DNA of 64,000 nucleotides from an uncultured Lactobacillus sp. (lineage in GTDB: Bacteria > Bacillota > Bacilli > Lactobacillales > Lactobacillaceae): positions 121,489 through 185,488 of the forward strand of contig CAMLRL010000001.1 in the NCBI GenBank assembly GCA_946482465.1, in the 5' to 3' direction. Shown here in pieces: positions 1 to 40,340 of the stretch; positions within the stretch are counted from its first letter, which is position 1; each line of letters opens with the position of its first letter. The notes below the pieces were generated by a model. That model saw only the letters and a program-made list of their open reading frames with translations. It was not told the DNA's origin and made no database searches. Made by a program: the position numbers and the translations under genes.

Positions 1-2672
1 TGCTCCAAACGCTTTAAAGACTTATTCTTCTCATCTGTATAACTATCATCCGTATATAGATATGGGTCATCTGTTTCAGGTTTCCAAGTTTCAGGTTTCC
101 AAACCGTTTCTTTTCCCTTTGGATCTGTTATGACTGCCTGAACATGAGCCTTAGTACCACCAGGCAGAAGCAGACCAAATATTCCATCACTAGTTACTCC
201 ATCTTCTTTTTCTTTGTAATGTAATACCTGACCACTGATTGTACTCGTACCTTTAGCTGAATCATATGTTACATGAACCGTATTAGGATCTATATCCAAG
301 AAACCACTTGGGTTGGCTGGTTTAAAAGCGATATTGTTGTATCCAGGATTAGTTGGATCAGAGAAAGCAAATTTAATAACTTGTTTGAAAATATCATCAT
401 ACGATGTGCCAGCTCCCTCATTAGCTTTAGCCCATGCATCTAGCATACCTGCAACTTTATCGTATTTTTGTAATATTGCTTGGACCTGTTTATTATTGTC
501 TAATAAAGCTTTCTCTTTATTAGTGAATTTTCTCGTTCCATTCAGAAGTTCTAGATAAGGAACATTCATTTCAACTGAATTTTTACCTGTATTTTCAACT
601 TGCAAAACGTGGAAAGGAGGTAACACAAGTTTCATATCAGGATGTAATTCATCAGGAGTTAAAACCTGACGAACATTAGTAATAGTGATATTGCTTTGAC
701 CAACAATACTAGTCCCATCTGCATGATTTAAATGACAATCCAAGATTAATGATGTAGGGTTATTAACAATTAAGTTTCCCGGTGCATCTACTAAAATAAT
801 ATCTTCTGTACCAGCACCTGTTTTGGCGCCAACAGTTTTATCATCAGTTAATTTAATATTGAACGCACCGTTTTCAACATCTGCGTTACCTTTAATATAA
901 ACAAGCGTACCTGAATAATTACCCATATCATTCCCAACAACATTTAATTGAGAATTGGGATTAATAGTAAAAGAACCTCCATCATAAATTAGGTATCTAT
1001 TATTACCACTATAATTAGCTATATCACCATTGGTTTTGACATTAACTATACCTTGATAATCCTTACCATTTGAATCAGTGCCACTATTAATATTGAACGA
1101 AGAAGAATTACTGTCATTGATGTAAATACCAGTAGCCTGCTTATTATCATAAACACCAGTGTATGCAGAATTACCTGAGTTATCAATGCCAACATTGATA
1201 TTCAATGTTCCTTTAACATCAACTGTATTACTACTACCTCTCATAACAACTGCGAAAATTGTACCAGTATTTTCAGCATTATTTGTTGAAGTGTATTTAC
1301 TCTTATCATAATTGCCAGCAGGATTAAGTGTTACATTTGCTTTTGGCTCCACAGTAACCGCATTATTTGAACCAGCCATTTCTATGACATTTCCACCAAA
1401 TGTTGTTCCTGTAAAAGTACAACCACTTTCAAAATCAATACTGTTATTAGAGCCAGTGAATTCAAAAAGTTGTTGTCTATTGTCTGCATAAGCGCTGTTT
1501 GTTCCATCATGTCTTACATATGGAACGTAGATTGTTTCCGCAATAACATTGCCTTTTATGTGGATTCTTGCACCAGATGTACTATGAACCAATTGTGTTC
1601 CGTGATATTCAACATTCTTAAATGTTACATCACAACCTTTTCTATAGTTGTCAGTTCTGATAACACCATAATCATCACCACTATACAAATTCAAATTTTC
1701 ATAAGTCAAATCCAATGCTTCACTACTAGAAGCTCTTACACACGGATCATATCCATTGAAATCTATTTTTCTACGTTCATTTCCATATGATTTTACCAAG
1801 AGCTTTCTGCCGTATATATATTTATATGAACTATTACTAGATCCATTGTCAGCGTAAATGTCTTGCATAATATCAATCTCAGATATACGTTTAGTCTCAT
1901 CAGGCTGATTTACATTTTTAAAGCATTCATCATTTTTAAAAGCATTGAGAAACTGATTCCAATTATATGCGTGTGCTACGCCATTTACCACAGTTGCATA
2001 GTCACCGGTTTTATCGTCGTTAGCTGTATCATTAGCCAATTTCTTAGCTTCATTAGCTTTTGAATCTTGAGTAGTATCAGTATCTTTACCTGAATTAGTA
2101 GTGTCACCAGTTACATCAGTTGGCAACTTAGTATTGTCAGAGTTGTGATCATCCGAACCAGTTATGTCAGTTGGAGTCTTATCAGTAGTGGTATCTTGAT
2201 TGCCTTCATCTGAGCCAGTTGCAGGAGTAGTTGCACTATTGCCAGTTGAATCAGAAGTTTCCTGTTTGTCCTTATCAGTTTTATCTTTAGCAGTAGTATC
2301 AGTCTTGTCCTTAGAACTGGTATCTTTTACTTCATCAGTCTTTGAGCTTTTTAAGAATGAACTCAAACCTGAAAAAGTTGACAAGTCCGTTTCATTCTTC
2401 TTTTTAGACGCAGCAGCGTCTGCCTTGGTTTTATCCTTAGTACCTGTTTCCTTAGTTCCAGTATTAGAGTTATCCCTGTTCGACTCCTCTGTGACATTTT
2501 GTGATGGATCTATAGTATCAGCTTTTACGCTTTGGCTATTCAGACCAAAGAAAGTAAAACCCAGCAAAACAGAAGCAGCACCAATACTCAATTTACGAAT
2601 TGAGAAGTGGTCCTGCTTGTCCTGCATCTCCATCTTCCTTAATCTTTCATTATAATTATTTTTTCCTAGCAT
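1..2672 (-). CDS. YSIRK-signal surface adhesin with beta-helix (pectate-lyase-like adhesive) domain, 3' end outside window
   Basis: The reading frame is open from ATG at 2672 to the window edge (about 890 codons, no stop), so the C-terminus and any LPXTG anchor lie outside. An SD (GGAAGG) precedes the ATG. Residues 1-55 form a YSIRK-type signal peptide (HFSIRKLSIGAASVLLG, cleavage probably after VKA), which directs secretion at the division septum in Gram-positive cocci and lactobacilli. Residues about 55-230 are a low-complexity Asp/Thr/Ser/Lys linker. From about 240 onward there is a Asn/Gly/Ser-rich stretch with repeated short strands (for example LTYENLNLYSGDDYGVI, GNVIEMAGSNNAVTVEP), typical of a right-handed beta-helix of the pectate-lyase-like adhesive domain class. 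Likely role: wall-anchored adhesion. Family assignment is by pattern; the ligand is unknown. Confidence 0.85.
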   Translation of the reverse strand, partial: MLGKNNYNERLRKMEMQDKQDHFSIRKLSIGAASVLLGFTFFGLNSQSVKADTIDPSQNVTEESNRDNSNTGTKETGTKDKTKADAAASKKKNETDLSTFSGLSSFLKSSKTDEVKDTSSKDKTDTTAKDKTDKDKQETSDSTGNSATTPATGSDEGNQDTTTDKTPTDITGSDDHNSDNTKLPTDVTGDTTNSGKDTDTTQDSKANEAKKLANDTANDDKTGDYATVVNGVAHAYNWNQFLNAFKNDECFKNVNQPDETKRISEIDIMQDIYADNGSSNSSYKYIYGRKLLVKSYGNERRKIDFNGYDPCVRASSSEALDLTYENLNLYSGDDYGVIRTDNYRKGCDVTFKNVEYHGTQLVHSTSGARIHIKGNVIAETIYVPYVRHDGTNSAYADNRQQLFEFTGSNNSIDFESGCTFTGTTFGGNVIEMAGSNNAVTVEPKANVTLNPAGNYDKSKYTSTNNAENTGTIFAVVMRGSSNTVDVKGTLNINVGIDNSGNSAYTGVYDNKQATGIYINDSNSSSFNINSGTDSNGKDYQGIVNVKTNGDIANYSGNNRYLIYDGGSFTINPNSQLNVVGNDMGNYSGTLVYIKGNADVENGAFNIKLTDDKTVGAKTGAGTEDIILVDAPGNLIVNNPTSLILDCHLNHADGTSIVGQSNITITNVRQVLTPDELHPDMKLVLPPFHVLQVENTGKNSVEMNVPYLELLNGTRKFTNKEKALLDNNKQVQAILQKYDKVAGMLDAWAKANEGAGTSYDDIFKQVIKFAFSDPTNPGYNNIAFKPANPSGFLDIDPNTVHVTYDSAKGTSTISGQVLHYKEKEDGVTSDGIFGLLLPGGTKAHVQAVITDPKGKETVWKPETWKPETDDPYLYTDDSYTDEKNKSLKRLE

Positions 2673-2719
2673 ATTTATCCTTCCTAAAAAAGTATGTATG
2701 TTTAGTATGTTCGAATACT

Positions 2720-2748: not shown

Positions 2749-3313
2749 TATAATATCTATAACTAATGTTGTATTTATAAATAACTACACAATTTAAATT
2801 GATAAATTTTAAAAAAGAAAAAACGATATATTTGCTAAATATTTTATTAAGCTCTTAATTTTTATGCTAAAAATAACATAATAAAGAGCATTAAAATTGA
2901 CTTTTAAATATTTATCCTGAATATTTTTCAGCTAAAAATAATATAATAATTTTTAAAACTATTTGTATTATGATTACTAAAAACATTAAATTATGCTTTA
3001 TTTTTAAAACTTTTTAGTGATATTAGTAGGGGTTTCGAAAGAATAAAAATTAAGTAGATTTCATAACAAACCAAAAAATTTAAAATAAATCTATACTTTC
3101 ATACTCAAACTTATTCATAAAAATTTAATAACTTGTTTTATTTTTATCTTTAAGAAAACTAATAATAAAAAACGCGCTTCATAACGATTTTTTGAAAATC
3201 TATTTTGCTATTAAAAAATAAATACAAACTATAAAATAATAAATTAGTACCATAATTGTATGAGAAAAAATTATTTTCACTCATAAGGAATTTGGATATT
3301 TGAAATCTCTATC
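2749..3313. other. AT-rich intergenic stretch without recognised genes
   Basis: About 560 bp of very AT-rich sequence between the adhesin promoter and the leader-RNA promoter. No ORF with an SD, no tRNA and no clear terminator hairpin was seen. Confidence 0.6.
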
Positions 3314-3342
3314 TTGACAAATGAAGTCATGCTTAGTAGTAT
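3314..3342 (+). promoter_or_regulatory. Promoter of the structured leader RNA / usp operon
   Basis: TTGACA (3314-3319), 17-bp spacer, TAGTAT (3337-3342); an overlapping TATAAT sits at 3340-3345. Transcription would begin near 3350, about 245 nt before the first start codon, so a long leader is implied. Confidence 0.75.
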
Positions 3343-3349
3343 AATAATT

Positions 3350-3582
3350 GATCTGAGTTGATCGACTAGCTTAATTGTATAAGGTTGACCGGTCAAACAT
3401 AAGACATGCGAGATAGTAAATAACTTTCGAATCGGAATACTATCTTTTGCGATAGGATCCATATTCGTTGCGCTACTTCTCATTTTTTGAACACTGCGGG
3501 TTCAACAAGCATTGTTTTGCTATGTTTCGACGACTCGGATTTCTTGAGAATTTTAGGAAACGGTCTGTTGACCGTTTTTTTT
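3350..3582 (+). ncRNA. Lacto-usp-type leader RNA (candidate 6S-like RNA)
   Basis: A leader of about 230 nt lies between a strong promoter and a Rho-independent terminator, directly ahead of a small hypothetical membrane gene and a universal stress protein gene. That is the published context of the Lacto-usp RNA motif of lactic acid bacteria, which always precedes an operon of a hypothetical gene plus usp and was proposed to be a 6S RNA. The region contains several potential helices, including the perfect 12-bp palindrome TTGACCGGTCAA (3385-3396), which shares the GACCG segment with the terminator stem. The call rests on context plus promoter/terminator architecture; the covariance model was not run. 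Confidence 0.7.
3558..3582 (+). terminator. Terminator at end of the leader RNA
   Basis: AAACGGTC (3558-3565), loop TGTT, GACCGTTT (3570-3577) then a T run. It lies just 13 nt before the downstream ATG, so it either releases a small RNA or attenuates the usp operon. Confidence 0.8.
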
Positions 3583-3594
3583 ATTGGAGTTTTT

Positions 3595-3876
3595 ATGATT
3601 ATCAAAGTTGCTATCATAATTTATTTAGCTGTGTTGCTTTTAACTGCGTATTATCTCTGGCATAATCGCAAGACTCACTTTCTAATATATAACAGCAAGA
3701 ATATTGCTAATTTCAGTTCAATTATGACTGGAACTGCTATCCTACTGGTTATCGAAAGTCTGATAGGAATTTTTCTGGCTTTCCAGTCTAACGAATATCT
3801 TAACCTCATTACCTTGGCACTTAGTACAGTTACTATTTTAATTTTTAGCCTTTTACTTAATCAAAAGGATGATTAA
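3595..3876 (+). CDS. Small hypothetical membrane protein of the usp operon
   Basis: A 93-residue protein with three hydrophobic segments (about 2-22, 42-62, 68-87), so an integral membrane protein of unknown function. The start at 3595 is chosen because GGAG (3586-3589) sits 5 nt upstream and because the longer in-frame reading would run backwards through the terminator hairpin. It ends 44 bp before the usp start and is probably co-transcribed with it. It fits the hypothetical gene that accompanies usp behind Lacto-usp RNAs. No catalytic motif is visible. Confidence 0.75.
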   Translation: MIIKVAIIIYLAVLLLTAYYLWHNRKTHFLIYNSKNIANFSSIMTGTAILLVIESLIGIFLAFQSNEYLNLITLALSTVTILIFSLLLNQKDD

Positions 3877-3920: not shown

Positions 3921-4376
3921 ATGATGAAACAATATCACCGTATTCAAGTTGCAGTTGATGGCTCAAAAGAAGCCGATTTAGCTTTCAAAAAAGCTATCGC
4001 TGCTGCTAAGCGAAACGAAGCTGCTTTGGAAATTTTACATGTCATTGATACTAGATCTTTTCAAAACGTGTCTAGTTTTGATTCCGAGATGGTAGAACAA
4101 GTGTCTAATGATGCTAAAGAAAAACTGCAGAACTACTACAATAAAGCTACAGAAGCTGGGGTTAAGGAAGTTCATTACTCAATTGAATTTGGCTCTCCCA
4201 AAGCAATTATTGCCCATCAGTTTCCGCAAAAGCACCAAATTGATTTAATTGTGTTAGGCGCAACGGGACTTAATGCCGTTGAACGAATATTGATCGGCAG
4301 TGTAACTGAATATGTAACCAGAACAGCAGATTGTGACGTTTTGGTTTGCCGTTCAAATGAAAATCTAACTAAGTAA
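3921..4376 (+). CDS. Universal stress protein, UspA family
   Basis: A 151-residue single-domain Usp. It starts with the beta1 strand and the motif QVAVDGSKEADLAF, and its C-terminal half holds the ATP-binding signature GATGLNAVERILIGSVTEYV (Gx2Gx9GS/T type), so it is likely an ATP-binding Usp that acts in the cytoplasm during stress or energy limitation. An SD-like AGAGAGGTG (3906-3914) precedes ATG 3921; a second ATG follows immediately. An upstream in-frame GTG at 3900 lies before that SD and is less likely. Second gene of the leader-RNA operon, closed by a strong terminator. Confidence 0.9.
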   Translation: MMKQYHRIQVAVDGSKEADLAFKKAIAAAKRNEAALEILHVIDTRSFQNVSSFDSEMVEQVSNDAKEKLQNYYNKATEAGVKEVHYSIEFGSPKAIIAHQFPQKHQIDLIVLGATGLNAVERILIGSVTEYVTRTADCDVLVCRSNENLTK

Positions 4377-4380
4377 AAAA

Positions 4381-4409
4381 GAGCATTTCATCTCTGAAAT
4401 GCTCTTTTT
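4381..4409 (+). terminator. Terminator of the usp operon
   Basis: A perfect 10-bp stem GAGCATTTCA / TGAAATGCTC with loop TCTC and a T5 tail, 5 nt after the usp stop. The A-rich other side could also help end rodA transcription from the opposite strand. Confidence 0.9.
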
Positions 4410-40184: not shown

Positions 40185-40203
40185 TTTTATTGGGATATCC
40201 GGG
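40185..40203 (+). repeat. Attachment-site repeat, right end, within tRNA-Gln
   Basis: Identical to 32732-32750. It covers the 3' acceptor strand and part of the T-arm of the tRNA-Gln gene, so integration preserves the tRNA. Confidence 0.88.
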
Positions 40204-40261
40204 CTCGAACCGAAACATGCAGGAACCAGAAACCTGTGCCTTACCATTTGGCTATATCCCA
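40190..40261 (-). tRNA. tRNA-Gln (anticodon CTG)
   Basis: Cloverleaf on the minus strand: acceptor TGGGATA/TATCCCA, D-stem GCC/GGC, anticodon loop TTCTGGT with anticodon CTG, T-arm TTCGG-TTCGAGC-CCGGA, discriminator A; CCA not encoded. U1-A72 is normal for tRNA-Gln. The anticodon stem CAGGT/TCCTG has a T-T mismatch at its loop end. Reads CAG. Integration target of the element to its left. Confidence 0.85.
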
Positions 40262-40268
40262 GTGTTAA

Positions 40269-40340
40269 TCACCCGTACGAGAATTGAACTCGTAACTCCA
40301 CCTTGAGAGGGTGGCGTCTTAACCATTTGACCAGCGGGCA
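40269..40340 (-). tRNA. tRNA-Glu (anticodon CTC), atypical acceptor stem
   Basis: Cloverleaf on the minus strand: D-stem GTC/GAC, anticodon stem CCACC/GGTGG with loop CTCTCAA (anticodon CTC), T-arm ACGAG-TTCAATT-CTCGT. The acceptor TGCCCGC/ACGGGTG has a T-G first pair, a G-T second pair and a C-A mismatch at position 7. Reads GAG. First of the two-tRNA unit, 7 bp before tRNA-Gln. The weak acceptor may mean relaxed function. Confidence 0.72.

Follow-up and report, generated by a model that had tools for sequence, protein, structure and literature searches.

The element that lies upstream of a universal stress protein gene in the window (the whole stretch of 64,000 nucleotides of DNA analysed here, from an uncultured Lactobacillus) is very probably the 6S RNA (SsrS) gene of this Lactobacillus, and the Rfam family Lacto-usp (RF01710), which matches part of it, would then be the central bubble and apical arm of that RNA. 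6S RNA, which is common among bacteria, sequesters RNA polymerase when nutrients become scarce. We base the identification on reciprocal covariance models, gene order, the pRNA template and a mutually exclusive distribution, and together these strongly support what had been a guess in a first-pass annotation made from the letters alone, in which the element was given as a candidate Lacto-usp RNA and possibly the 6S RNA of the organism. The coordinates proposed there, 3350-3582, are correct to within 1-2 nt. The features of the locus are given below in window coordinates, with + for the forward strand.

3301-3314, +, degenerate cre-like sequence with two mismatches, where some relatives have a CcpA cre-like site
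3314-3342, +, putative 6S RNA promoter of the sigma-A type, TTGACA (-35, 3314-3319), 17 nt, TAGTAT (-10, 3337-3342)
3349-3582, +, probable primary 6S RNA transcript, with its start (about 3349) placed from the promoter and its end at the T-run
3350-3540, +, body of the RNA with closing stem, central bubble and apical arm, 184.4 bits with covariance model R1
3351-3362, +, closing stem, 5' strand, pairs with 3529-3540
3381-3394, +, predicted pRNA template in the 5' side of the central bubble, predicted pRNA 5'-GACCGGUCAACCUU starting opposite C3394
3384-3388, +, helix P2, 5' strand GUUGA, pairs with UCAAC at 3502-3506
3385-3396, +, palindrome TTGACCGGTCAA, perfect only in the clade with G for A (16/71 loci)
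3391-3481, +, match to Rfam Lacto-usp (RF01710), part of the central bubble plus the apical arm
3428-3467, +, covarying apical stem-loop CGAAU-GGA-CUAU...AUAG-UCC-AUUCG
3487-3505, +, 3' central-bubble hairpin UUGAAC-acugcgg-GUUCAA, mutually exclusive with P2, paired in 89% of cells
3497-3506, +, CGGGUUCAAC, 3' side of the bubble and 3' strand of P2, from alignment and motif comparison
3529-3540, +, closing stem, 3' strand, pairs with 3351-3362
3558-3582, +, intrinsic terminator AAACGGTC-TGTT-GACCGTTT plus T-run (hairpin 3558-3577, T-run 3575-3582)
3595-3876, +, gene of a small membrane protein of 93 aa, ATG at 3595, 13 nt after the last T
3921-4376, +, usp, universal stress protein (PF00582, E 1.2e-35)
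4376-4409, +, terminator 3' of usp, from a terminator scan

The assignment to Lacto-usp stands, since the RF01710 covariance score at 3391-3481 is 59.9 bits against a gathering cut-off of 50 (E 1.2e-7), and the match is followed by a small hypothetical gene and usp; no Rfam family other than RF01710 was found above its cut-off at this site. RF01710 is present in 71 of 75 Lactobacillus genomes, with one match each, and these include all 60 near-complete genomes. A culturable relative, the species of genome G166, has an RNA identical to that of the window. One match in a genome of another family (G464, L107:2034-2116), at 57.9 bits and above the cut-off, was rejected as a false positive because its sequence fit is poor, it has none of the 6S motifs and a normal 6S gene (L109) is found elsewhere in the same genome. 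The Rfam model covers 90 of the roughly 190 nt of the RNA and leaves out the closing stem, and the 6S architecture has therefore been hidden.

The body of the RNA is about 190 nt long and has the architecture of 6S RNA, in which a closing stem, here with covariation between its strands, is followed by a central bubble and then an apical arm. A structured leader of about 230 nt had been described in the first-pass annotation, and the folding bears this out, as the leader has more structure than expected by chance, with a z of -3.0, and none of 200 shuffles equalled it. In an alignment of 33 sequences the closing stem consists of 12 pairs, with 97.5% of cells paired and changes on both sides in four of the pairs; the apical stem-loop is paired in 100% and 97.7% of cells and shows compensatory changes. 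Helix P2 is paired in 33/33 Lactobacillus representatives and is a consensus helix in canonical 6S RNA as well. Over the whole structure, 95.2% of cells of the 33-sequence alignment are paired versus 89.3% in shuffles, and when the structure is slid by 1-3 columns the pairing falls to 24.9-41.5% of cells. Compensatory double changes occupy 95 cells, compared with 31 in shuffles.

The generic 6S model RF00013 found no match in the window or in its own genome, even at E 10, so that the Rfam search for 6S proposed earlier came out negative, and it matched 0/75 Lactobacillus genomes. Taken alone, these negatives would have misled: the RNA does not reach the RF00013 gathering score, which is a detection threshold and not a biological trait, and in the wider Lactobacillaceae sample, where RF00013 matched 56 of 151 genomes, it scored 30 of those 56 matches below the gathering cut-off. 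The failure of RF00013 even at E 10 would fit a small RNA of a separate kind, Lacto-usp proper, which sits in the old 6S position and acts in another mode, for example by antisense pairing; the apical arm is also unlike canonical 6S RNA in sequence, and the L. delbrueckii RNA had at one time been suspected of acting as an antisense RNA (PMC8414754). We consider such an RNA very unlikely, however, given that the pRNA template, the 3' bubble block, P2 and both arms are retained and that models built from either group hit the other.

Two covariance models carry this last point. R1 is a full-length model from 33 diverse Lactobacillus relatives, the window's own sequence among them, and R2 was built from 12 canonical, RF00013-positive 6S genes taken only from other Lactobacillaceae genera. 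When the Lactobacillus loci (98 kb) were scanned with R2 without filters, 40 hits were obtained, of which the best 28 all lay at the position and on the strand of Lacto-usp, most of them over the full length, with a best E of 1e-7; the first off-target hit came at rank 29, and at E <= 1 the model was on target in 31 of 32 loci. Across the 75 Lactobacillus genomes, the best R2 match in the genome was on target in 56 of the 65 with any match and in all 42 best-scoring ones. In the window's own genome the sole R2 match, C1:124835-125033 (window 3347-3545), is on the element but weak (E 0.85). With R1 against the canonical 6S loci (96 kb), the four best hits were on target, the best of them full length at E 1.7e-5, and the best match begins at the 6S 5' end in 12 of 30 canonical loci. 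Homology to 6S RNA is thus seen by sequence-structure models in both directions, weakly for the window's own sequence alone. The gene is single copy, as 6S RNA genes of lactic acid bacteria are, with one RF01710 match per positive genome and one R2 match in the window's genome, which is 54% complete.

The pRNA template provides the closest correspondence in detail. The hallmarks reported for 6S RNA of lactic acid bacteria are GG at positions 5/6, AA at 9/10 and an A by the start (PMC8414754); GG and AA are present in 71/71 Lactobacillus loci, and the conserved adenine beside the pRNA start, A3395 in the window, is an adenine in 70/71. The predicted pRNAs of all 71 loci are GAUCGGUCAAC or GACCGGUCAAC, those of the canonical Lactobacillaceae are GAUCGGUCAAC or GUUCGGUCAAC, and the 6S-1 pRNA of B. 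subtilis, GUUCGGUCAAAACU, matches the Lactobacillus prediction (PMC12005410). The motifs GTTGACCGA[T/A]CA and GCGGGTTCAA occur together in 15/30 canonical 6S RNAs and in 0 of their flanks, at a spacing of 103-113 nt in the canonical RNAs versus 108-117 nt in Lactobacillus, and GCGGGTTCAA, which lies within 3497-3506, is identical in 15/30 canonical 6S genes. Orthology with the canonical 6S genes of sister genera is shown here by sequence, fold, gene order and a near-identical pRNA template.

This template also accounts for the palindrome that had been picked out in the first-pass annotation, where its GACCG was noted to recur in the terminator arm and alternative pairings, with attenuation as a possible outcome, were proposed. 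The palindrome is present, but it is better explained as the pRNA template site, from which it is one A-to-G difference away, than as an attenuation element, and the alternative pairing did not hold up. If the element were a leader acting in cis to attenuate the membrane gene-usp operon, the palindrome's GACCG would pair with the terminator arm as antiterminator. The terminator, which ends 13 nt before the ATG at a spacing that is short in the relatives too, would suit such a leader, but this reading is highly improbable: the terminator arm has GACCG/CGGTC in 41/68 relatives and lacks it in 27/68, and its pairing with the invariant template block is therefore not conserved as a device; the ends of the RNA are brought together by the covarying closing stem, in which the terminator has no part; and 6S RNA of other genera has the same invariant blocks. 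Attenuation by terminator-palindrome pairing was accordingly dropped. The predicted pRNA of the G-variant clade begins with 8 nt (GACCGGUC; window 3387-3394) that are self-complementary, and such pRNAs could therefore pair with each other.

The gene order agrees with that of a 6S locus. The usp gene is downstream in 71/71 Lactobacillus loci and in 28/30 canonical loci (same strand), a rarA homologue is upstream in 52/71 versus 30/30, and the small membrane gene between the RNA and usp is homologous in the two groups; the order rarA - 6S - uspA has been reported across lactic acid bacteria (PMC8414754). In the window's genome usp is adjacent to the RNA and rarA is not, and a rarA copy 89% identical to the syntenic rarA of a relative is located about 47 kb from the RNA. 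That copy, which matches the usual 6S neighbour, adjoins another surface protein gene with similar repeats. The place that rarA has in most relatives is occupied by a divergent surface protein gene at window 1-2673 (-), which runs on beyond the window, on its upstream side, to G000:C1:113769 (L103:8281-18672) and encodes 3463 aa with a YSIRK signal, DUF1542 repeats and four SlpA domains. The genome has a pair of rarA paralogues with about 38% identity, at G000:C1:77010-77507 (L105) and G000:C4:1293-1793 (L104), and the copy described above is one of them. Elsewhere in the window two tRNA genes stand side by side at 40190-40340 (-).

The promoter claimed in the first-pass annotation was found as TTGACA-17-TAGTAT, and TTGAC is present 5' of the RNA in 70/71 relatives. 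A cre-like site with at most one mismatch occurs 5' of the promoter in 11/71 Lactobacillus loci versus 27/1420 control windows, in most cases directly upstream of the -35, and these counts agree with the cre sites reported earlier at the rarA-6S-uspA locus (PMC8414754). The terminator 13 nt before the ATG was likewise recovered, and the stretch 3541-3594 has a folding energy of -16.3 kcal/mol with a z of -3.25; a simple terminator scan missed this terminator. The genes that follow are the small membrane gene and usp, as had been read from the letters, and no Pfam family was found for the 93-aa protein. In the relatives the gap from the T-run of the RNA to the ATG has a median of 13 nt and is at most 32 nt in 64/67. 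So short a gap leaves no space for a second promoter, and read-through from the 6S promoter is therefore a plausible source of usp expression.

Established 6S biology comprises open-promoter mimicry, sequestration of the sigma-A RNA polymerase and release by pRNA synthesis (PMC8876501), and on this model the Lactobacillus RNA would mimic an open promoter and occupy the sigma-A polymerase at low nutrients. When nutrients come back, the polymerase would copy the template from C3394 into the short pRNA (GACCGGUCAACCUU), whose synthesis is expected to open helix P2 and eject the RNA, and the freed UCAAC strand could then close the UUGAAC/GUUCAA hairpin. Occasional read-through of the terminator would let transcription from the 6S promoter reach the small membrane gene and usp. 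The predicted probability of the UUGAAC/GUUCAA hairpin in the window's species rises from 0.43 to 0.93 with the 9-nt pRNA site blocked, and in the same folding comparison the CCUGC hairpin of canonical 6S RNA is already at about 0.91. In some relatives the UUGAAC/GUUCAA hairpin already dominates, and about 8/33 representatives have it weakly or not at all. The folding predictions raise the possibility, which we put forward tentatively and hold to be rather doubtful, that the release switch of Lactobacillus 6S RNA was rebuilt, with the bubble hairpin that is compatible with P2 in other lactic acid bacteria swapped for one that shares a P2 strand, such that an E. coli-like release was reached independently and pRNA synthesis would flip UCAAC from P2 into the UUGAAC/GUUCAA hairpin.

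The discoverers of Lacto-usp reportedly already raised 6S RNA as a possibility. It has already been published that lactic acid bacteria have their 6S RNA at this locus, with a 210-nt ncRNA of L. delbrueckii named as 6S and one Lactobacillus group marked as non-canonical (PMC8414754), and the novelty is modest. Lacto-usp is not named in the main text of that paper, and among the literature searched the name appears only in the 2010 discovery paper. What is new here is that an explicit test ties the names Lacto-usp and 6S together; no new kind of molecule is described. The orphan Rfam family thereby gains a probable identity as a fragment of 6S RNA, and this would explain the failure of generic 6S searches in Lactobacillus. 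Merging RF01710 with 6S would annotate 6S RNA genus-wide in a single step, and if the switch was rebuilt, two designs of the release switch could be compared directly inside a single family of bacteria.

By score, structure and context the RNA is a member of Lacto-usp. It resembles the canonical Lactobacillaceae 6S RNA (RF00013) and B. subtilis 6S-1 in size, in the succession of closing stem, central bubble and apical arm, in the GUUGA/UCAAC helix, in the sequence of the pRNA start and in the order rarA-RNA-membrane gene-usp, and it shares with canonical 6S, in part of the genus Lactobacillus, the cre-like sites upstream. It differs in that the sequence, that of the apical arm above all, has diverged beyond the generic model. 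In addition, the canonical RNAs have a CCUGC/GCGGG bubble hairpin that is compatible with P2, whereas Lactobacillus lacks it and has instead the UUGAAC/GUUCAA hairpin, which competes with P2. Compared with the release hairpin of E. coli 6S RNA, the Lactobacillus one is shorter (6 bp versus 9 bp), is partly formed in the free RNA and is absent in several Lactobacillus species. Nevertheless, both are hairpins of the 3' bubble, and the Lactobacillus one is predicted to gain once P2 opens, much as the E. coli release hairpin gains when the downstream helix opens (PMC8876501).
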